A stretch of 52,411 bases of DNA from Sphingobacteriales bacterium (GTDB lineage Bacteria > Bacteroidota > Bacteroidia > CAILMK01 > JAAYUY01). The stretch spans positions 1-52,411 of the forward strand of contig JAAYUY010000050.1 in assembly GCA_012517435.1 (NCBI GenBank). The letters run 5' to 3'. Below, piece by piece: positions 25,400-34,098 of the stretch. The notes under the pieces were generated by a model that saw nothing but the letters and a program-made list of their open reading frames with translations, made no database searches and was not told where the DNA came from. Position 1 is the stretch's first letter, and each line of letters opens with the position of its first letter. Both the position numbers and the translations under genes were made by a program.

Positions 25400-25969
25400 A
25401 TGACCCCACAGGAATTAACTGCCATCTATCTGGCAACAGCAACAGCCATTTTCATCGAAGGTGAAACTGCCCTGATTGCGTCTTCCTTTGCTGCTAAAAT
25501 CGGTTATTTAAATTTCCCGCTTGTATTTTTCATTGCTTATTTCTCAACTATATCTTACGACTGGGTCTGGTTTTTTATAGGCCGGTGGAGAGGCAGAAAA
25601 TATATTGAATCCAGAAAAGGGCTTCAAAAAATGAAAATAAAAGTGGACAACTTCCTCAATAAAAGGCAAACCTTGTTTCTGCTTATTTATCGTTTTCTCT
25701 ATGGATTCAGAGGTGCTATTTGTCTGATTGTAGGCCTTAGCCAGGTGAAGGCAAAAAAATTCATTTCGCTCAGCCTCATTACTACCCTGATATGGACTGC
25801 TATTTACTCCGGACTTGGGTTCTTTTTTGGAAAAGTATTAGAAAAAAAGCTGAGCAATTTTCAAAGCTCAGCTCCTTTTATTTTGCTTGGAATAGCCTGT
25901 CTGGGGATTATTCTTTACTCCATTACCACTTACTCTACCGGTAAAAAGTTTTTTAAAAGTAAAGAATAA
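25400..25969 (+). CDS. DedA/SNARE-associated (VTT) family membrane protein
   Basis: 189 residues, about five hydrophobic segments. The VTT-domain features are FIEGETALIASSFAA near the N-terminus (acidic re-entrant helix), WVWFFIGRWRGRK, and RFLYGFRGAICLIVGLSQV, which stands for the F.GR..PG.R......G motif of the family with the Pro missing. DedA proteins are linked to undecaprenyl-phosphate or phospholipid flipping and to membrane stress tolerance. This copy is at the short end of the family. It converges on the TM2 gene with 3 bp between stops. Confidence 0.85.
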   Translation: MTPQELTAIYLATATAIFIEGETALIASSFAAKIGYLNFPLVFFIAYFSTISYDWVWFFIGRWRGRKYIESRKGLQKMKIKVDNFLNKRQTLFLLIYRFLYGFRGAICLIVGLSQVKAKKFISLSLITTLIWTAIYSGLGFFFGKVLEKKLSNFQSSAPFILLGIACLGIILYSITTYSTGKKFFKSKE

Positions 25970-25972
25970 AAA

Positions 25973-26389
25973 TCACCACATAAACAGTTTTTTGTTGTCA
26001 ATATACTGACTGATGTCGCCATCCAAAGCCCCTAAAAACAAGACTACGGTATCGACTATCTGCAGGATTCCGCAGCCTCCGCCTGTAAGCAGATAGGCAA
26101 TAAAAACCCCGGTACCAGACCCCAGATAAATTCTGTGCAGGCCAGAAATACCGGTAACATAAAATACCATGCTCAGGGCAAATGCCACCCATGGATCCTT
26201 CTCGTAAACCATTGATTGTGAAGCATTCGGAAGATTAACCGATAAAACATTATTCATGTTCAAATCAGTCGATTCCTCTGCTACATTGAACATCTGGTTT
26301 AATTCTTCATCATTTATTTTATAAGGAGATGAAGAAAGCAACGGAATAGCCGCGAAAAAGGCAATAACGGTTAATAGCACATTTTTCAT
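25973..26389 (-). CDS. TM2-domain protein with signal peptide
   Basis: 138 residues. An N-terminal hydrophobic stretch MKNVLLTVIAFFAAIPLLSS looks like a signal peptide, followed by a polar linker of about 45 residues and the TM2 domain: DPWVAFALSMVFYVTGISGLHRIYLGS, then GVFIAYLLTGGGCGILQIVDTVVLFL, with the characteristic G.HR.YLG and GGCGI.Q..D motifs. Function of TM2 proteins is unknown. It is the last gene of the ECF sigma locus, 10 nt after the preceding barrel gene, so probably co-transcribed. Confidence 0.8.
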   Translation of the reverse strand: MKNVLLTVIAFFAAIPLLSSSPYKINDEELNQMFNVAEESTDLNMNNVLSVNLPNASQSMVYEKDPWVAFALSMVFYVTGISGLHRIYLGSGTGVFIAYLLTGGGCGILQIVDTVVLFLGALDGDISQYIDNKKLFMW

Positions 26390-26399
26390 AAGCTCAAAT

Positions 26400-27038
26400 T
26401 TAAAATTTCCCCAATTTAATTGTAAATGAATAACTTAAACCATTAAAGGCGTTTGATTCTGTTTCATAGAGTTTCAGGTCTTCGACAAGGCGGTAATTTA
26501 CCCCTATTCCAAAGCGAAGATTTTTGACAAAATTCAATTCAAGATTTATTCCCGGCTCAATTACCAGAAACATATCGGAGTCTTCCCTTTTGTAGCTGAA
26601 ACCAATCTCCGGATCCCAAAAAAATGTTTCGTCAATATAAATAGCACCACCACCACCCAATAAACATGGGAAAGAAACATGGACAGGAAATTTTGGCATC
26701 AAGGTAGGTTCAATGTAAAAGCCCCCGTAAGTCATATAGAGGGACAATGACCTCGGATTTGACCCCGACCAGCCTAAATCCCGTTTCACAGTGGACGTCA
26801 GGCTGTAGCCTCCAAGCCCGAACGACATCCAGTGATTCATGATCCAACCTCCGCGAAAACCGGTAAAATATACCTGCCGGCCAAACATTTCAGGTTGAAA
26901 GGCAATTGACATCGACCCGAATCCACCTTTTGCCACTTCTTTATTTCCGAAAATCGTCTTTATTTCATTTTTCTGTGCCTGAGTGTTCATGGCAAACACC
27001 ATAAAAACAGCCATCAAAATCAATCTTAACTCTTTCAT
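26400..27038 (-). CDS. Small outer-membrane beta-barrel protein, paralogue A
   Basis: 212 residues, signal peptide MKELRLILMAVFMVFAMNTQAQ. The mature part begins NEIKTIFGNKEVAKGGFGS and is made of short alternating strands rich in Gly and aromatic residues (GGFYIEPTLMPKFPVHVSF, NLRFGIGVNYRLVEDL), ending with the terminal Phe of an outer-membrane barrel. It is clearly paralogous to the protein at 27586-28200: both start with (N/D)EIKT(I/L)FGN and share the strand FVLEPGI(N/D)-like segment. Probably 8-stranded. Part of the ECF locus; function unknown. Confidence 0.75.
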   Translation of the reverse strand: MKELRLILMAVFMVFAMNTQAQKNEIKTIFGNKEVAKGGFGSMSIAFQPEMFGRQVYFTGFRGGWIMNHWMSFGLGGYSLTSTVKRDLGWSGSNPRSLSLYMTYGGFYIEPTLMPKFPVHVSFPCLLGGGGAIYIDETFFWDPEIGFSYKREDSDMFLVIEPGINLELNFVKNLRFGIGVNYRLVEDLKLYETESNAFNGLSYSFTIKLGKF

Positions 27039-27048
27039 ATTGTTTATT

Positions 27049-27576
27049 TTAGAACTTATACAAAACTGAAAAACCTATATCAAAAACACTGCTGCCTAAC
27101 TTTTTGTAAGGACCAAAAATATTCAATGCCGGCTTAAAATCAAGGCTGACAATCACGGGATAGGTTTCAAGCCTGTATTCAACTCCCGCCAATACATCAA
27201 AACCCAGATTGGGGAAACTCACTCTCCGCTCTTTGGTTATCTCATTCCCATTGTCATCAATAGCCTTGTAATATTCTTTTTCCCTGTAAAAACCAATATG
27301 TCCGCCAAATCCATAATGAAAAAAGAATCTGTCGCTATAAATCTGTGATAATGGATCATTGTAAAAGTACAATCCGGTCAGTAAAGCTCCTTTTTCTTTG
27401 TTGTAGGCAATCAGCTCAAAAGCATTTTCATAGTCCAGGTAGGATTTATAAACAAAGCCGGCCCCAGCACCAAATCGCAGGCCAATGGCCTGAAAATCCT
27501 GTCCTTTAGTTGTTTTTAACATCATGAATATCAGATTAAAAAACAATAACAGTAGTAATTTACCTCTGCCAAACAT
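27049..27576 (-). CDS. Small outer-membrane beta-barrel protein
   Basis: 175 residues with a long hydrophobic signal segment (LLLLLFFNLIFMML) and cleavage near TKGQ. Mature strands such as AIGLRFGAGAGFVYKSYL, FFHYGFGGHIGFYRE, LGFDVLAGVEYRLETYPVIVSL and the final VFDIGFSVLYKF fit an 8-stranded OmpA/OmpX-like barrel with C-terminal Phe. It lies between the two paralogous barrels, 9-10 nt from each neighbour, in the ECF sigma locus. No function recognised. Confidence 0.7.
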   Translation of the reverse strand: MFGRGKLLLLLFFNLIFMMLKTTKGQDFQAIGLRFGAGAGFVYKSYLDYENAFELIAYNKEKGALLTGLYFYNDPLSQIYSDRFFFHYGFGGHIGFYREKEYYKAIDDNGNEITKERRVSFPNLGFDVLAGVEYRLETYPVIVSLDFKPALNIFGPYKKLGSSVFDIGFSVLYKF

Positions 27577-27585
27577 AAACTTGTA

Positions 27586-28200
27586 TTAAAAATACCCGAA
27601 TTTAAAAGAAGCATTAATAGAAAGACCTGACATATCTCTGTCATCAAGGTTTTCCAGGAAGGTACCGGAAATCAGGCGATAACTGGCTCCCAATGAAAAA
27701 CGCATGAATGACAATAAATTGAGCTGAATATCTATTCCCGGTTCCAGTACAAAAAAAGTGGAGGATTCGATCAGGGCATTATCGAAAAATAAGTTGTAGT
27801 CGCGGTAATACAACTTTGCACTACCGCTTCCGATTAACAAAGGTATTGACAGATTGATTGCTTTTGTCGGGAAAAGCATGTATTCAAAAAGAACTCCTCC
27901 ATAGCCAAAATTCAGCCTGCCGGTTGAATCATGTCCTAAACCATCAGAAAGAACTAACCTGACCGGTGTTGACAAACCCCATCCTCCTCCGCCAAGTACG
28001 AGCTGATGATTCAGGATGCAGCCCCCTTTCCCGCCCAGTAACAGTGAGGCATGGTTGGAAATACTTGTAAATTTCATATCAAAGGAACCATATCCCCCGA
28101 ATTTAAGTTCATTCCCAAAAAGTGTTTTAATTTCGTCATCATTCTGACTGAATGCCGCAGTGGCATTTAGCAAGATAATTGCCAGTAAAAGTCTTTTCAT
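27586..28200 (-). CDS. Small outer-membrane beta-barrel protein, paralogue B
   Basis: 204 residues, signal peptide MKRLLLAIILLNATAAFSQ. The mature N-terminus DDEIKTLFGNELKFGGYGS repeats the start of the protein at 26400-27038, and segments such as FGYGGVLFEYMLFPTKAINLSIPLLIG and FFVLEPGIDIQLNLLSFMRFSLGASYRL align with it throughout. Ends FKFGYF, a barrel-type terminus. Six nt separate it from the GIN protein upstream. The pair probably arose by duplication within this operon. Confidence 0.75.
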   Translation of the reverse strand: MKRLLLAIILLNATAAFSQNDDEIKTLFGNELKFGGYGSFDMKFTSISNHASLLLGGKGGCILNHQLVLGGGGWGLSTPVRLVLSDGLGHDSTGRLNFGYGGVLFEYMLFPTKAINLSIPLLIGSGSAKLYYRDYNLFFDNALIESSTFFVLEPGIDIQLNLLSFMRFSLGASYRLISGTFLENLDDRDMSGLSINASFKFGYF

Positions 28201-28206
28201 CTTGAT

Positions 28207-28953
28207 TTATTTTTGTCTGATTATTTTTCCTGTTCCCAGCGAATTTACTGTAATTTCAGCATCTCCGAAATAATAAATGTTCCCTGTTCCGAATATTTCA
28301 GCATCAATTTTTTTATTTGCTGCTGTAAATATATTTCCTGTTCCGATAATTCTTGCCTTGCAGGTATCACTGACCAATGAGGCAGTGTTTATTTCACCCG
28401 TGCCGTTTAACCTGAGTTGCGATTTCCGGCAGTTCCCCTGAAGCTGAATATTACCTGATCCGGTAATTTCCACCTGAATTTCTTCCGCTTCAACATCAAG
28501 CTCCACTTTCCCGCTTCCAGAGGCCTGTGTATTCAGAAACTCCACCAGCAATTCGTCAAGGTCGATACTGCCTGTTCCAATTAACTCAACTTCAAGCTTT
28601 CGGGCTTTTAATCCGACCGACTTGACCAAACCTGAACCTGTCATCTTAATTTTCCTGATTTCCGGGGCATGAACATAAATTTTAACAGGCTCACAGGATT
28701 TGATCCTTTTATTTTCAAGTGTCCCGATATTCAGTGTTTTGCATGCCACAGCAGTTTCAATGTCTTTCATGACGCTTTCTTCTGCCTCTATGTATAGCTC
28801 ATATTTCTGATCCTGAACAATGTACAGCTCAAACGGGCCGTTCATCACCACCATATCAAATTCAGAAACCGACCGCCATTCTTTTGTTACCTGAGCAAAT
28901 AAAGCAGGATTCAGCAAAACGAACAACAGAACGAAAAAAATCAGCTTTTTCAT
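28207..28953 (-). CDS. GIN-domain (DUF2807) secreted protein, GTG-repeat type
   Basis: 248 residues from the ATG at 28953 (an in-frame TTG lies three codons upstream). Signal peptide KKLIFFVLLFVLLNPALFAQ. The opening VSEFDMVVMNGPFELYIVQDQ is the head-GIN motif. The rest is a repeated beta solenoid with eight turns, each carrying G-S/T-G at the corner (TGSG, GTGS, SGSG, TGSG, GTGE, GTGN, GTGN, GTGK). It ends SLGTGKIIRQK, paralleling the SGSGKIIRL end of the adjacent paralogue. GIN proteins are periplasmic or surface solenoids of unknown biochemical role. Lies in the ECF sigma locus, 11 nt after its paralogue. Confidence 0.82.
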   Translation of the reverse strand: MKKLIFFVLLFVLLNPALFAQVTKEWRSVSEFDMVVMNGPFELYIVQDQKYELYIEAEESVMKDIETAVACKTLNIGTLENKRIKSCEPVKIYVHAPEIRKIKMTGSGLVKSVGLKARKLEVELIGTGSIDLDELLVEFLNTQASGSGKVELDVEAEEIQVEITGSGNIQLQGNCRKSQLRLNGTGEINTASLVSDTCKARIIGTGNIFTAANKKIDAEIFGTGNIYYFGDAEITVNSLGTGKIIRQK

Positions 28954-28964
28954 TTTTCTCAATT

Positions 28965-29768
28965 TTACAACCTGATAATTTTACCACTGCCACTGATATT
29001 CATATCAATAGCCGGACTTCCTTTATAATAGACGCTTCCACTACCACTAATTGTTACATCCAGTAACTGGCTTACATTTACCCATGCCGAACCTGAGCCA
29101 CTTATTCTAACTTTACAATAATCCTGCATGAGGTCAACCAGACGATAATCACCCGAACCTGAAATCAGCAAGTCGGTAGTCTCAGCATAGCCTTTGGCTT
29201 TAATCATGCCTGAACCACTAATGACTGATTCAAAATAATCTGTTTCAAGATAGTCAAAATTTGTATATCCTGAACCTGAAACATTGGCTTCAGTGTTATC
29301 TGCAATCAGCTTTTCTATTTTTATATCCCCTGACCCCGAAATTACCGTTTTCATATCTCTGACATTCAGGCTGTCGCTAAAAATATTGCCTGAGCCTGAA
29401 ATGACTATCTTATTCAGATCGGGGGTATGAACAAATACTTTAATCGGATAGGTTTCCCTCAGGCAATAATTATCCCTTGTCTTAATAATCAGGTTCCCTC
29501 CGAGAATGCCCGTTAATACATAAGGAATCAGGTTCTCCTCTGCTTCTACTTCTACCCAGTAAGCTGTATCCTGAATAATGTAAGTCGTAAAGTCGGTTGT
29601 CAGGTTAACACTGGTGAATAATGGCAGGGATCGTGTTTCCTGATCCACTATTCCGTTTCCATAAATACATGGATAAAAATAATCATCACATGAACTTATT
29701 AACATCACTGCTGCACTGATGATTGTCAGTGCTAAACCAATTTTAAAATACCTTTTCATCGTTTTCAT
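28965..29768 (-). CDS. GIN-domain (DUF2807) lipoprotein, SGSG-repeat type
   Basis: 267 residues from the ATG at 29768 (alternative ATG at 29759; an upstream TTG is less likely given the promoter position). Signal and lipobox: IISAAVMLISSCDDYF, so a lipoprotein. After the head (FTSVNLTTDFTTYIIQDTAYWVEVEAEENL), eight regularly spaced turns carry an almost invariant SGSG (ISGSGNIF, ISGSGDIK, VSGSGYTN, ISGSGMIK, ISGSGDYR, ISGSGSAW, ISGSGSVY, ISGSGKII), about 20 residues apart, typical of a right-handed beta solenoid. The bipartite ECF-type element at 29777-29808 sits directly upstream. Function unknown. Confidence 0.85.
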   Translation of the reverse strand: MKTMKRYFKIGLALTIISAAVMLISSCDDYFYPCIYGNGIVDQETRSLPLFTSVNLTTDFTTYIIQDTAYWVEVEAEENLIPYVLTGILGGNLIIKTRDNYCLRETYPIKVFVHTPDLNKIVISGSGNIFSDSLNVRDMKTVISGSGDIKIEKLIADNTEANVSGSGYTNFDYLETDYFESVISGSGMIKAKGYAETTDLLISGSGDYRLVDLMQDYCKVRISGSGSAWVNVSQLLDVTISGSGSVYYKGSPAIDMNISGSGKIIRL

Positions 29769-29776
29769 TTTTTCTC

Positions 29777-29808
29777 TTAATGACAATGTTTTTCATCATG
29801 GGTTGCAT
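29777..29808 (-). promoter_or_regulatory. Second copy of ECF-type promoter ATGCAACC-N13-ATTGTCATTAA
   Basis: Minus strand: ATGCAACC (29808-29801), 13 nt, ATTGTCATTAA (29787-29777). This is identical in both boxes and in spacing to the element before the sigma factor gene (32048-32079), although the 13-nt spacers differ. It lies between the stop of the DUF4097-like gene and the ATG of the GIN lipoprotein. The AAC and GTC cores match the general layout of ECF sigma promoters. It would let the GIN and barrel genes be expressed beyond read-through. Confidence 0.65.
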
Positions 29809-29815
29809 ATTCCCT

Positions 29816-30910
29816 TTATCTGTATAAAATTTTTACCGAACCTTTTACTGCATTAATAATTACCTTAACTCCACTCTCTCCGGCATCACCAAAAACACCC
29901 GTTGTTTTATACTGTTTGGTATCTTTATTAATTAATTGTGTGTTTAGAACCATCTGTTGGGGATAATTAAACGAAACATCCGTGTGAGTAAGGTTAAAAT
30001 TAAAGCTGCTCCCCGGCTGGAAAAACAGCGTAATATCAGTATAATTGGATTTAAGCTGAATACCCCTGAACATTTTATCAATCATTTCGAGATTGAGCGA
30101 GCCAAATGACGTTTCCATATTCATATCATCATCAAATCTGTAAACCATCATTTTGGTGAAATAAAGCTTTCCCTTTATAGTTCCGACCCTTTTCAACTCG
30201 ATAACATCCCTCCTCGAATCAATTTCAAGTGTTGATACTTCAGAAAGATTTACATTGGATGATTTTGAAATAAGGTTAAGCTTCCCGGCTTTTTCAAGAC
30301 TGATAGTAGAAAACTGGCAATTTAATGCTCCTTCCGGCATGTATTGTATAGAGGCTTTTCCAAACTTAATTTCAATATTGGAAAAAGAAGATAAGTCGGC
30401 TATCCTCAGATCTCCGTGAGCAAGGTCGATATCGAGCGGAGCCCTGACATTCCCTAAGTAAATATCCCCAAAACTATTTTTGATTTTCAGGCGGTTAGCA
30501 GAAGGGAGATACACGGTATAGTCAATCACGGCTTCGGCACCTATGGTCATAAAGGCATTGGTGATATTATCTATTTCTGTTTTTATAGTATTGCCCGAAG
30601 AACCTATAAGCGTTGTAGCCCTGACATAATATTCTGAAACAGAAAAGTTAAAGTTCAGCAATGTTTCAAGTTTTTTAATCTTATCCTGTGTTTTGGCAGT
30701 CATCTCAAAATTGATAACTATCCTGACAGAATCCTTTTCCCAGTTGATTACTTCAACTTTACCGAATTTATTGGTTATTTCAACAATCTGTTGTGGTGTA
30801 AGCTTATACGACCTGATCAGCCGCCTGCTTTCTTTGAGTGTCTGAGCCGGCAGCATCAGCGCTGTCAGGACTAATGCCGTTATCAGCAGGAGTATTTTCA
30901 AGTTCCTCAT
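29816..30910 (-). CDS. Secreted DUF4097-like beta-solenoid protein
   Basis: 364 residues, signal peptide KILLLITALVLTALMLPAQ. The start of the mature protein, ITNKFGKVEVINWEKDSVRIVINFEM, is the putative auto-adhesin/DUF4097 opening (fragments of the form N.fG.V.V..W..d.V.v). Later turns SFGDIYLGNVRAPLDIDLAHGDL, KFGKASIQY, STISLEKAGKL and FGSLNLEMI continue the solenoid. Proteins of this kind commonly follow an ECF sigma/anti-sigma pair in Bacteroidota. Its ATG overlaps the anti-sigma candidate by 4 nt (ATGA), so translation is coupled. Function unknown. Confidence 0.7.
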   Translation of the reverse strand: MRNLKILLLITALVLTALMLPAQTLKESRRLIRSYKLTPQQIVEITNKFGKVEVINWEKDSVRIVINFEMTAKTQDKIKKLETLLNFNFSVSEYYVRATTLIGSSGNTIKTEIDNITNAFMTIGAEAVIDYTVYLPSANRLKIKNSFGDIYLGNVRAPLDIDLAHGDLRIADLSSFSNIEIKFGKASIQYMPEGALNCQFSTISLEKAGKLNLISKSSNVNLSEVSTLEIDSRRDVIELKRVGTIKGKLYFTKMMVYRFDDDMNMETSFGSLNLEMIDKMFRGIQLKSNYTDITLFFQPGSSFNFNLTHTDVSFNYPQQMVLNTQLINKDTKQYKTTGVFGDAGESGVKVIINAVKGSVKILYR

Positions 30911-31479
30911 AATGATATATTTTTATTGTCTGATGACTTATTTTCACTTTCTCTGGCTTTCCGCAACTGAAACAGTACTTCTTCGAGTATATTCAGTTTA
31001 AGGCGGTAATTTTCAATAAGTTTCACGATTATTTCTTCATTATTAATATTGTTTCCAAGCTCAGCCTTCAATTCTTTGCAGGCTTGGTCAAGCTCTTCCA
31101 GATCGGCTTTAACATCTGCTTTCACTGATTGAAATTCAGGGTAATTTCTATTGAGTTCATCCAGCATTAAGTTGACCTGATGATTGTAATAAACCTCAGC
31201 TTCAAGGATTTCATTTTTTTCAGCTTCCATAGTCTTTTCTGACTCTGCCAATGACTGATTATCTGTGGTGTTCCTGATAAACTTTTCATACACAAATACA
31301 GAAACAAATGCAATGGCAAGCACTGCGGCAATCCTGAGCGGATAATACCAGATGGTTTTGCTCTTTTGCAGGGGAGTTTTCAGCTGATGTGCAATATTTG
31401 ACCATACTTCAGGTGATGGCTCATAGACATCAAACTCATCGCGATGGTCTTTTACAAATTTTTCAAAACGCTCACTCAT
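30907..31479 (-). CDS. Single-pass membrane protein, probable anti-sigma factor
   Basis: 190 residues. The cytoplasmic N-terminus (MSERFEKFVKDHRDEFDVYEPSPEVWSNI, written here in part as PSPEVWSNIAHQL) is typical of short Bacteroidota anti-sigma proteins encoded after ECF factors. One membrane helix lies at about 47-65 (YYPLRIAAVLAIAFVSVFVY). The remainder is long, charged and helical (about 85-180), probably a periplasmic coiled coil. There is no zinc HxxxCxxC motif. It starts 1 nt after the sigma stop and overlaps the next gene by ATGA. Sigma-binding is inferred from position and topology. Confidence 0.65.
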   Translation of the reverse strand: MSERFEKFVKDHRDEFDVYEPSPEVWSNIAHQLKTPLQKSKTIWYYPLRIAAVLAIAFVSVFVYEKFIRNTTDNQSLAESEKTMEAEKNEILEAEVYYNHQVNLMLDELNRNYPEFQSVKADVKADLEELDQACKELKAELGNNINNEEIIVKLIENYRLKLNILEEVLFQLRKARESENKSSDNKNISL

Positions 31480-31480
31480 T

Positions 31481-32044
31481 TCAGGCTGATTTTAAAATTT
31501 CCTTAATTTTATTTTTTGCTCGCATATACTGTGTTTTCGAGGTCGATTCCGAAATGTTCAGAATCTCCGCAATCTCTTCATGGTCGTAGCCTTCAAGCAG
31601 GTAAAGGGATAAGATGATCCGGTAGCCATCGGGCAATAGCTGAATGGCTTTTCTTACTTTTTCCACTTCGTACATTAATTCATCCTCATCCATGCTTTCA
31701 TCAGGTAAATCTTTTTTAAATACATTCTCCTGATATTCTATGTCAATCTTTTTCTTTTTAATGGCATTGATGCACTTATTGACCACTATCTGCTTGAGCC
31801 ATGCACCAAAAGTTGATTCAAACCGGAAGGTATGCAGCTTAAGAAAGGCATCAGTAAATGATTCCTGTAAAATGTCTTCAGCTTCTTCCCTGTTATTCAG
31901 CATACGCCAGCAAATACTAAACATTCCCCGCGAGTAGTTTTGATACAACCGGTATTGTGCCTGACGGTTGCCTTTCATGGCCTTCTCGACAAGCGCACGG
32001 TCGTTATGAACAAAATCTACCTGCAAGTTATGTTTTGTTTTCAA
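31481..32044 (-). CDS. ECF-family RNA polymerase sigma factor
   Basis: 187 residues if the TTG at 32044 is used; another TTG at codon 7 or the ATG at codon 23 (31978) are alternatives. Region 2 (about 25-92) contains YRLYQNYSRGMFSICWRML, REEAEDILQESFTDAFLKL and ESTFGAWLKQIVVNKCINAI. Region 4 (about 128-182) contains LPDGYRIILSLYLLEGYDHEEIAEIL and a helix-turn-helix ISESTSKTQYMRAKNKIKE. This is the core ECF layout. The element at 32048-32079 ends only 3 nt before the TTG, so transcripts would be nearly leaderless or use a downstream start. Probably held by the membrane protein encoded next and autoregulated. Confidence 0.92.
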   Translation of the reverse strand: MKTKHNLQVDFVHNDRALVEKAMKGNRQAQYRLYQNYSRGMFSICWRMLNNREEAEDILQESFTDAFLKLHTFRFESTFGAWLKQIVVNKCINAIKKKKIDIEYQENVFKKDLPDESMDEDELMYEVEKVRKAIQLLPDGYRIILSLYLLEGYDHEEIAEILNISESTSKTQYMRAKNKIKEILKSA

Positions 32045-32047
32045 TGT

Positions 32048-32079
32048 TTAATGACAATCATTCAGTTCTCAGGTTGCAT
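32048..32079 (-). promoter_or_regulatory. ECF-type promoter of the sigma operon (ATGCAACC-N13-ATTGTCATTAA)
   Basis: Minus strand: ATGCAACC (32079-32072), 13 nt, ATTGTCATTAA (32058-32048). It is repeated exactly, box for box and spacing for spacing, at 29777-29808 in the same operon. The AAC-containing upstream box and GTC-containing downstream box at this distance are the general form of ECF promoters, so autoregulation by the sigma factor is the simplest reading. Transcription would start at about 32046-32042. Confidence 0.65.
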
Positions 32080-32187
32080 GCAGCTGTGAATATTTCTTAA
32101 GAAAAGCAAATTTCCTGAATTATTCCGAAAAATAAAAAGCTCATTTCTCTGATTCAGTCTCCGGATTTCCCCCATTTCCCTTATGAT

Positions 32188-32288
32188 GACAAAAATTTGT
32201 CAAAGTTTCACCCAAATTGAAATTTTGTCTTTCCAGATTTGAAATTTTGTCTATATGTATCTGACAATGAGAATATTAGATTGACAAA
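32188..32288. repeat. Cluster of five TTTGTC/GACAAA hexamers upstream of hsp20
   Basis: A palindrome GACAAA-AA-TTTGTC occupies 32188-32201. Two direct copies of TTGAAATTTTGTCT start at 32217 and 32239, a 22-nt period (about two helical turns). A further GACAAA is at 32283-32288. The arrangement is that of an operator for a dimeric regulator acting on hsp20 or on the sigma operon, but no regulator can be named. Confidence 0.45.
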
Positions 32289-32387
32289 TTGTAATTTTCC
32301 AGGTCATTTCTTCAGCAATTTTTCAATGGCATTTTGATTGAAAATTAATGGGCAAATTAAAAAATGATTGTTAAACAATAAAAAATA

Positions 32388-32394
32388 AAGGAGG
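32388..32394 (+). promoter_or_regulatory. Strong Shine-Dalgarno sequence of hsp20 (AAGGAGG)
   Basis: AAGGAGG ends 8 nt before the ATG at 32403, a near-perfect match to the 16S anti-SD. Such sites are uncommon before Bacteroidota genes and I do not see an equal one at the other starts I inspected. It suggests high or conditional translation of this stress protein. Confidence 0.75.
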
Positions 32395-32402
32395 ACAAAG
32401 CT

Positions 32403-32837
32403 ATGGCACTCGTTAAATGGAACAGGGACGACAGATTCCCGGTATTTTCAAGGTTTTTTGAAGACTTTTTCAATGATGAACCCTTTTTCCCAAGCAGTTG
32501 GATGAACAGGGTTCCTGCTGTTAACATTCTGGAAAACAAAGATTCTTTTTCGGTCGAACTTGCTGCTCCGGGATTGAACAAAAACGATTTTAAAATCAAT
32601 CTCGAAAACAATCTGTTGACGATTGAATGCAGCAAGGAAGATAAAAAAGAAGAAAAAGACGAACGTTTTACCAGAAGAGAATTCTGCTACTCCAGCTTCC
32701 AGCGTTCATTCACGCTGCCCAACACCATCGATACCAATAAAATTGACGCTAAATATGAAGATGGTGTCCTGAAAATCAATCTGCCAAAGAAAGAAGAAGC
32801 TAAAGAAAAACCTGCCAGACAGATTTCTATCAAATAA
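32403..32837 (+). CDS. Small heat-shock protein, Hsp20/alpha-crystallin family
   Basis: 144 residues, standard length. An N-terminal aromatic-rich arm (FPVFSRFFEDFFNDEPFFP) is followed by the alpha-crystallin domain: VNILENKDSFSVELAAPGLNK, DFKINLENNLLTIECSKE, FCYSSFQRSFTLPNTID, then AKYEDGVLKINLPK, the A-x-x-x-G-V-L-x-I-x-L-P signature, and an I-S-I tail that may serve as the IxI oligomerisation motif. An ATP-independent cytoplasmic holdase chaperone. Own transcription unit with strong SD upstream and a terminator downstream. Confidence 0.96.
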   Translation: MALVKWNRDDRFPVFSRFFEDFFNDEPFFPSSWMNRVPAVNILENKDSFSVELAAPGLNKNDFKINLENNLLTIECSKEDKKEEKDERFTRREFCYSSFQRSFTLPNTIDTNKIDAKYEDGVLKINLPKKEEAKEKPARQISIK

Positions 32838-32860
32838 CAACCCTATTCACTATCCAGCAT

Positions 32861-32888
32861 AAGCCGGGGAAATATCCCGGCTTTTTTT
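32861..32888 (+). terminator. Intrinsic terminator after hsp20
   Basis: Stem AAGCCGGG (32861-32868) pairs with CCCGGCTT (32876-32883) around a 7-nt loop, followed by a T-run. It reaches the stop codon of the convergent NamZ-like gene. Confidence 0.85.
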
Positions 32889-34098
32889 ATTTTGAAGGCT
32901 TCAGTTCCAGCATCTGCCCCTTAAAGGTGGCATCAGGGTAAAGCAAATATTTTTTTCTGATCAGCAGGAACTGATTTATATCTGATTGCCAACTCTTTCT
33001 GATATTTTCCGGCTGCTCCCCTGCAATTATCTGCTTTCTGAGCTCATCAGTTCCGGCAAGTTTATCAAAAAAGGAATTGAAAAATGTCTCCTTATCGGGA
33101 GAATTGTCATAAAAACCAATCAACCAATGTAAATACAGCATATCTGTATTGACAACAAACTCATTGGCAAAATCAGTCAGCTTAAAGCCAGAGCAGGTTT
33201 TTCCCTCATAGAGGGGTTTATCAGCAATTCCCGGAATTGATTGAGGAGTAAAAGTAAAATTTCCCTGAGTGAAACCTGGTTTACCGATAACTTCAAAAGG
33301 GAAGCCGGTACCTCTGCCAACACTCACATCCGTGCCCTCAAAAAAACACAATGATGGGTACAAAATCATGGCTTCACGTGTACGAAGATTGGGGGAGGGT
33401 GGTATTTCAGGATAATATCGGGTATCATGATCATATCCTGACAGGCTGATTACCTTCAGCTTACATCTGATTCCGTTTTTCAGCCAGCCTTCTCCGTTCA
33501 CCATCAGGGCATATTCGCCTATAGTCATTCCATAAACAACCGGAACTGGATGAAGACCGACAAACGATGTATAAGCAGGTTTTAAAACAGGTCCGTCAAC
33601 ATAATAAGCATGGGGATTTGGTCTGTCGAGTACCATCAATGAAACATTGTTCTCCGCACAGGCTTCCATGACGTAAGCCAAGGTTGAAATATAGGTAAAA
33701 AACCTCACGCCCATATCCTGGATGTCAAAAACAACCAAATCCAATCCTTTCAAATCTTCTGGAGCGGGCTTTTTCTTATCACCATAAAGAGAAATAACCG
33801 GAATCTTTGTCTTGCCATAGTAGCTGTTTCCTACCTTCTCCCCAGCCGACACATTTCCCTGAAGTCCATGCTCAGGCGTAAAAATTTTAACCACCTGCAT
33901 ACCCGAATGTAAAAGACTATCAATCAGTTGTGTTTTGCCGATCACTGAAGTCTGATTAACAACAAGGCCAAGTTTTTTACCACTGAGAAAAGGAAAATAT
34001 TCATTTGTCTGTTCTGCACCGGTTTTAACCTGAGCATTCACTAAATTTGCCAGGCAAATAATCATAAAAAGAACCAACAAAAAACTGTGTTTTACCAT
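32887..34098 (-). CDS. DUF1343 / NamZ-type exo-beta-N-acetylmuramidase
   Basis: 403 residues with signal peptide (FLLVLFMIICLANLVNAQ). The DUF1343 family hallmarks are LGLVVNQTSVIG, KIFTPEHGLQGNVSAGEKVG, DLVVFDIQDMGVRFFTYISTL, VLDRPNPHAYYVDGP and YPSLCFFEGTDVSVGRGTGFPFE. Characterised members (NamZ) release N-acetylmuramic acid from the non-reducing end of peptidoglycan fragments. It should act in the periplasm in cell-wall recycling or degradation. The family-typical Glu in TPEHG and Asp in FDIQD are present. No muramic-acid kinase or etherase gene is adjacent. Its start is 29 bp from the divergent permease start. Confidence 0.88.
   Translation of the reverse strand: MVKHSFLLVLFMIICLANLVNAQVKTGAEQTNEYFPFLSGKKLGLVVNQTSVIGKTQLIDSLLHSGMQVVKIFTPEHGLQGNVSAGEKVGNSYYGKTKIPVISLYGDKKKPAPEDLKGLDLVVFDIQDMGVRFFTYISTLAYVMEACAENNVSLMVLDRPNPHAYYVDGPVLKPAYTSFVGLHPVPVVYGMTIGEYALMVNGEGWLKNGIRCKLKVISLSGYDHDTRYYPEIPPSPNLRTREAMILYPSLCFFEGTDVSVGRGTGFPFEVIGKPGFTQGNFTFTPQSIPGIADKPLYEGKTCSGFKLTDFANEFVVNTDMLYLHWLIGFYDNSPDKETFFNSFFDKLAGTDELRKQIIAGEQPENIRKSWQSDINQFLLIRKKYLLYPDATFKGQMLELKPSK

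Follow-up and report, generated by a model that had tools for sequence, protein, structure and literature searches.

Genes and putative promoters at the locus

The window, the whole 52,411 nt stretch of DNA analyzed here, carries a minus strand operon headed by an ECF sigma factor gene. Its genes and two putative promoters are listed in order of transcription. G002 and G003 denote two relatives from the same family.

32048..32079, minus strand: P1, putative autoregulatory promoter, ATGCAACC-N13-ATTGTCATTAA, with -35 box TGCAACC and -10 box TTGTCATTA; exact match, with the same site upstream of the G002 and G003 orthologs
31481..32026, minus strand: ECF sigma factor, sigma-70 regions 2 and 4 (PF04542, 9.2e-14; PF08281, 3.7e-15); the open reading frame opens at TTG 32044
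30907..31479, minus strand: putative membrane-spanning anti-sigma factor, 190 aa, adjoining the sigma gene (AlphaFold2 pLDDT 86.6; no Pfam match)
29816..30910, minus strand: exported toastrack protein (DUF4097), 364 aa (PF13349, 3.8e-05), third gene of the conserved core
29777..29808, minus strand: P2, putative internal promoter with boxes identical to P1, lying after the toastrack stop codon (29816) and before the GIN start (29768)
28965..29768, minus strand: GIN-domain protein 1 (DUF2807) with a lipoprotein-like signal (PF10988, 1.9e-40), first gene downstream of P2
28207..28962, minus strand: GIN-domain protein 2 (DUF2807) (PF10988, 5.6e-39)
27586..28200, minus strand: small outer membrane beta-barrel, OmpA/OmpX-type by its model (AlphaFold2 pLDDT 87.3, strands 34-203; Foldseek to OmpA 1.0e-06)
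27049..27576, minus strand: second barrel-module protein (BAR2 family), whose homologs in other loci come directly after P2-type sites
26400..27038, minus strand: third barrel-module protein (BAR3), a paralog of 27586-28200 (33% identical in alignment)

The 187 aa sigma protein matches only PF04542 and PF08281/PF04545 in Pfam, i.e. regions 2 and 4 without region 3, as in ECF (group IV) sigma factors. Its best solved relatives are SigW, SigH and sigmaE. The first possible start codon, TTG 32044, falls at about the expected transcription start, and the in-frame TTG 32026 matches the start position in relatives. Both observations make TTG 32026 the likely true start. An Hsp20 gene (32403-32837, plus strand) is divergent from the operon; it is also found near sigma in G002 and G003, with one more gene between.

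The gene next after sigma in nearly all loci examined encodes the 190 aa protein, which has no match in Pfam or NCBIfam. Its AlphaFold2 model contains seven helices, arranged as short N-terminal helices, one TM helix and a C-terminal helical domain. There is no beta or barrel part in the model, so it does not resemble the dual membrane-spanning proteins Dma and Reo. The HxxxCxxC zinc motif of Class I ASDI is absent from the protein, whose sequence has a single Cys, and the near-invariant positions include no Cys and no His. A fold search returned no significant match; sequence similarity to coiled-coil chains was weak and was set aside as an effect of low-complexity helices. Position and topology suggest that this protein is probably the anti-sigma factor of the adjacent sigma.

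Two identical bipartite sites

The first-pass annotation had described paired identical boxes with equal spacing and unlike spacers on the minus strand. A search of the whole window found exactly two copies of ATGCAACC-N13-ATTGTCATTAA, at 32079-32048 and 29808-29777, as described. P1 and P2 are identical at 19/19 box positions and in the 13 nt gap length, their spacers agree at 4/13 positions, and their flanks are unrelated. P2 sits in the stretch of about 50 nt that separates the DUF4097 gene from the DUF2807 gene. Both sites read AAC-N17-GTC, in which GTC begins 17 nt after AAC; this distance is the usual ECF layout. The primary-sigma -7 box (TAnnTTTG) was absent from the upstream stretches examined, and an Rfam search of 25900-32900 detected no RNA element.

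With up to 3 mismatches allowed, no further match was found in the 52-kb window (0.07 expected by chance). Pattern searches of the whole genome (G000, 3.19 Mb) gave two exact matches and four with 3 mismatches, and the reversed control motif gave none. An enumeration across the window of every exact 8+11-mer pair whose gap is 5-25 nt and whose spacers are unlike recovered only the P1/P2 pair and one low-complexity AT-rich pair. Since many layouts could strike a reader, the pair alone is only moderately surprising. It is the comparative evidence, rather than the pair itself, that decides the case for P1 and P2 as putative promoters.

Conservation of the sites

Three other genomes of the family were searched, and two of them (G002 and G003) have a sigma ortholog with 57-58% identity. 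In both, the motif lies before sigma and again about 2.27 kb downstream before the GIN gene, and the spacers differ throughout. The G002 sites are ATGCAACC-N14-TTGTCATTA (sigma) and ATGCAACC-N14-TTGTCCTTA (GIN); those of G003 are ATGCAACT-N14-TTGTCATTA and ATGCAACC-N14-TTGTCCTTA, respectively. Retention of both copies with different spacers at this divergence supports the earlier proposal that the pair reflects selection and not recent duplication.

A scan of GTDB genomes added 80 sigma orthologs from Bacteroidales, Flavobacteriaceae, Sphingobacteriaceae, Cytophagales, Saprospiraceae and other groups. The distance d in GCAAC-Nd-GTC was tabulated for 83 ortholog upstream regions: d=17 occurs in 66, d=18 in 6, and any other value at most once. 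This single fixed spacing agrees with the ECF layout that the first-pass annotation had read in the boxes. The phylum consensus is (A/G)TGCAACC(C/T)TT ... TTGTC(A/T)TT(A/G). Several of the regions lacking a site fall on contig ends or in masked sequence. Four orthologs without GCAAC were first read as site losses; three of these carry GCAGC-N17-GTC instead. A matrix built from the ortholog sites and scanned over 1.15 Mb gave 119 sense and 18 antisense matches, with 11 in reversed controls, and the sites are mostly 13-35 nt ahead of start codons. Absence of the boxes upstream of orthologous sigma and GIN genes had been named in advance as the result that would speak against the sites, and the boxes are conserved there. 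These results confirm that P1/P2-type putative promoter sites are kept across the Bacteroidota phylum.

A second site accompanies the GIN/barrel module

A core of sigma, anti-sigma and toastrack is common to nearly all loci, and some extend it with GIN genes, beta-barrel genes or both. Between +2.1 and +3.3 kb, a second site was present in 29/39 loci with the GIN/barrel module and 0/40 loci without it (Fisher 2e-13, a value not to be taken literally because the loci are mutually related). The pattern spans Bacteroidales and Flavobacteriaceae, and the gene that follows such a second site is always GIN or barrel. BAR3 homologs directly follow P2-type sites in Flavobacteriaceae. Separate transcription of the module would require just this placement, which matches the suggestion that one copy serves sigma and the other the GIN/barrel genes. 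P2 is not universal, since 10/39 module loci lack a second site at the threshold used. Loci of Sphingobacteriaceae and relatives (L107, L108, L118, L119, L132-L136 and L141) keep sigma, anti-sigma and toastrack, and have neither the module nor the second promoter.

Sites in trans

A third site in the genome, on another contig and with one mismatch, precedes a 223 aa homolog of the barrel (1.6e-12). In G002 the site also precedes another GIN gene in trans (4.6e-48). Strong sites in Flavobacteriaceae precede barrel and GIN genes in trans, as well as large proteins with an N-terminal CarboxypepD_reg domain and the layout of TonB-dependent receptors. At the sequence level the same site precedes the sigma operon and targets elsewhere in the genome, which is the arrangement of an ECF autoregulon. 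A strict pattern applied to 395 genomes across the phylum gave 3 hits and 0 control hits, with 3/3 upstream of a sigma ortholog. The boxes had been offered as a search motif for the regulon, and they serve as one: most of the genes recovered by strict scans are of the sigma, GIN, barrel and CarboxypepD_reg/TonB-receptor-like types.

Two other arrangements were observed. In several Flavobacteriaceae, the CarboxypepD_reg TonB-receptor-like gene with the same promoter is divergent, on the minus strand just upstream of sigma, at L142, L145, L156 and L157, and lies elsewhere at L126, L130 and L148. In G002, two short contigs that are near copies of each other (C92 and C136; L067 and L071) have a one-mismatch site before a 366 aa exported protein of GxQIGFVN-type repeats, which has no Pfam match.

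Residue 170 of sigma covaries with the -35 box

Of the 89 rows that make up the window's clade in a tree of 108 sigma factors, 75 have the GTC-type site. Neighboring ECF clades keep the TGCAACC -35 box and mostly have CATCTTTA with a spacer one nt longer. The -35 box is thus common to several clades, and the -10 box and the spacing tell them apart. Many other Bacteroidota ECF clades (L018-L035 and L191-L242) have TGCAACC-N17/18-CATCTTTA upstream of the sigma gene in an autoregulatory-looking position.

The GCAGC-N17-GTC sites of three orthologs prompted an examination of residue 170 in region 4.2, numbered from TTG 32044, which is lysine in the window's sigma. Lysine was found in 77/77 sigmas with GCAACC/T (GCAACY) and arginine in 16/16 with GCAACG/A (GCAACR) or GCAGC; these counts include related sequences, and the independent events are few. 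Arg170 is found in two distinct regions of the tree. In a more distant ECF set, lysine accompanied GCAAC in 20/20 cases and arginine accompanied GCAGC in 8/8, the GCAGC rule having been framed while viewing the very set on which it was counted. A strict purine/pyrimidine rule at position 8 of the -35 box held in the first set and not fully in the distant set, where a Lys-type site, L222, is GCAACG; a possible Arg-type site, L192, is ACAACT. The residue rule is therefore given as two forms. The Lys/Arg covariation with the -35 box extends to many Bacteroidota ECF sigmas beyond the window's clade (loci L078-L246).

Counted back from the conserved Arg175, residue 170 appears to correspond to Met181 of M. 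tuberculosis SigH. Mutation of Met181 relaxes specificity at -31 and -30 (PMC6411747). The covariation suggests that Lys170 is the -35 specificity residue of the window's sigma, and it ties the adjacent sigma to the box in P1 and P2. Covariation of a sigma residue with the promoter base that it would be expected to contact is the best evidence obtainable here for the adjacent sigma as the reader.

Which factor reads the sites

The sites with their fixed spacing, conservation, orientation and neighbors, and their covariation with sigma, are features of the DNA itself. They argue, with a probability of roughly 0.9, that P1 and P2 are promoters read by the ECF sigma encoded at 31481-32026.

Alternatively, P1 and P2 could be true ECF promoters whose main reader is a different ECF paralog. 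The genome has about 11 related ECF genes, and because paralogous ECFs share the TGCAACC -35 box, which is common to several clades, cross-recognition is possible. But the -10 type (TTGTC vs CATCTTTA) and the spacer track the clade of the adjacent sigma, whose residue 170 also fits the -35 type, and the one paralog with its upstream region read has a different site (ACAACC, CGTC). We consider a paralog improbable as the main reader. Bipartite form and conservation alone would equally fit an operator, bound by a separate transcription factor, in place of a promoter. That such an operator should be non-palindromic, run so strongly in one direction (sense vs antisense, above), lie mostly at the short distance before start codons given above with the ECF AAC/GTC spacing, and covary with a sigma residue is very improbable. 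The idea that a short repeat arose by chance or was recently duplicated draws on the fact that a single pair in 52 kb is only moderately improbable. The differing spacers and flanks of P1 and P2 speak against it, and conservation of both copies in relatives and phylum-wide refutes it, leaving it a negligible probability. Recognition by the adjacent sigma is thus the preferred reading of P1 and P2.

Discussion

The ECF autoregulon is a well-known kind of system. Autoregulated ECF sigma/anti-sigma regulons include those of E. coli sigmaE, B. subtilis SigW and M. tuberculosis SigH. The locus described here resembles them in its two-domain sigma, its rigid AAC/GTC promoter ahead of its own operon, its neighboring transmembrane (here putative) anti-sigma and the envelope genes among its predicted targets. 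It differs in the -35 box, which is TGCAACC here and GGAAC(TT) or TGAAAC there, in a putative anti-sigma without the zinc motif, in the extra promoter inside the operon for GIN/barrel genes, and in its Bacteroidota gene set. To our knowledge, neither promoter nor regulon has been established for most of the many Bacteroidota ECF sigma factors.

At the time of the B. thetaiotaomicron mapping, EcfO of B. fragilis was the only Bacteroidota ECF whose motif was known (PMC7366714). In Bacteroides, EcfO-Reo and Das-Dma pair an ECF with a membrane anti-sigma, respond to outer membrane stress and control surface proteins (PMC13114119, PMC13088901). The present system shares with them a Bacteroidota ECF, a membrane (here putative) anti-sigma and (here predicted) control of surface proteins. 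However, Reo and Dma span both membranes (PMC13114119, PMC13088901), whereas the 190 aa protein is all helical with one TM helix, and the predicted regulon consists of GIN, barrel and TonB-receptor-like genes, where theirs are NigD or PUL genes. In Flavobacterium psychrophilum, mapped transcript starts defined SM6, an ECF-type motif whose -10 box is CGT and which lies ahead of an ECF/anti-sigma pair (PMC9723704). SM6 targets genes of type IX secretion and Band-7 genes (PMC9723704), and the motifs are compared here by description only.

Toastrack and GIN (DUF4097/DUF2807) form one domain class linked to envelope stress in PSP/Lia contexts, and coupling of toastrack to an operonically linked sigma factor was foreseen (PMC11237479). 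The domain family is the same here, but the proteins carry export signals, whereas an intracellular toastrack was argued for (PMC11237479). DUF4097 and DUF2807 were found among the nine operon proteins scanned and no PspC or Lia partner was; neither PspA nor PspC was seen in the loci read. In the open literature we found no earlier description of the motif, the regulon, its phylum-wide spread or the residue rule; the ECF reclassification and the ECF Hub, which lay outside the search, may hold a group-level predicted motif.

Autoregulation of sigma and separate transcription of the GIN/barrel genes are strongly suggested by the placement and conservation of P1 and P2. In the proposed mechanism, the anti-sigma would release sigma, and RNA polymerase with sigma would then read both promoters. 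Transcription from P1 would yield sigma, anti-sigma and toastrack, giving positive autoregulation with a built-in brake. P2 would separately boost the GIN and outer membrane barrel genes; because it is separate from P1, effector output could rise out of proportion to the regulator. Copies of the site elsewhere in the genome would add further barrel, GIN or TonB-receptor-like genes. Gene content makes outer-envelope stress a somewhat likely inducing signal. We place even odds on a broader model, a Bacteroidota-wide sigmaE-like envelope-stress response in which an ancient sigma/anti-sigma/toastrack core has a GIN/barrel module attached by its own promoter copy and specificity resides in residue 170 (Lys for GCAACY; Arg for GCAACR or GCAGC).

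An uncharacterized ECF clade gains a predicted promoter, a gene list and a candidate specificity residue, and the predictions are testable in culturable Pedobacter, Mucilaginibacter, Kriegella and Arenibacter. Neighboring ECF clades, too, can be assigned -35 boxes by the Lys/Arg rule. The GIN and toastrack proteins, which are widespread and functionally obscure, gain a putative regulatory context in an outer-envelope response.
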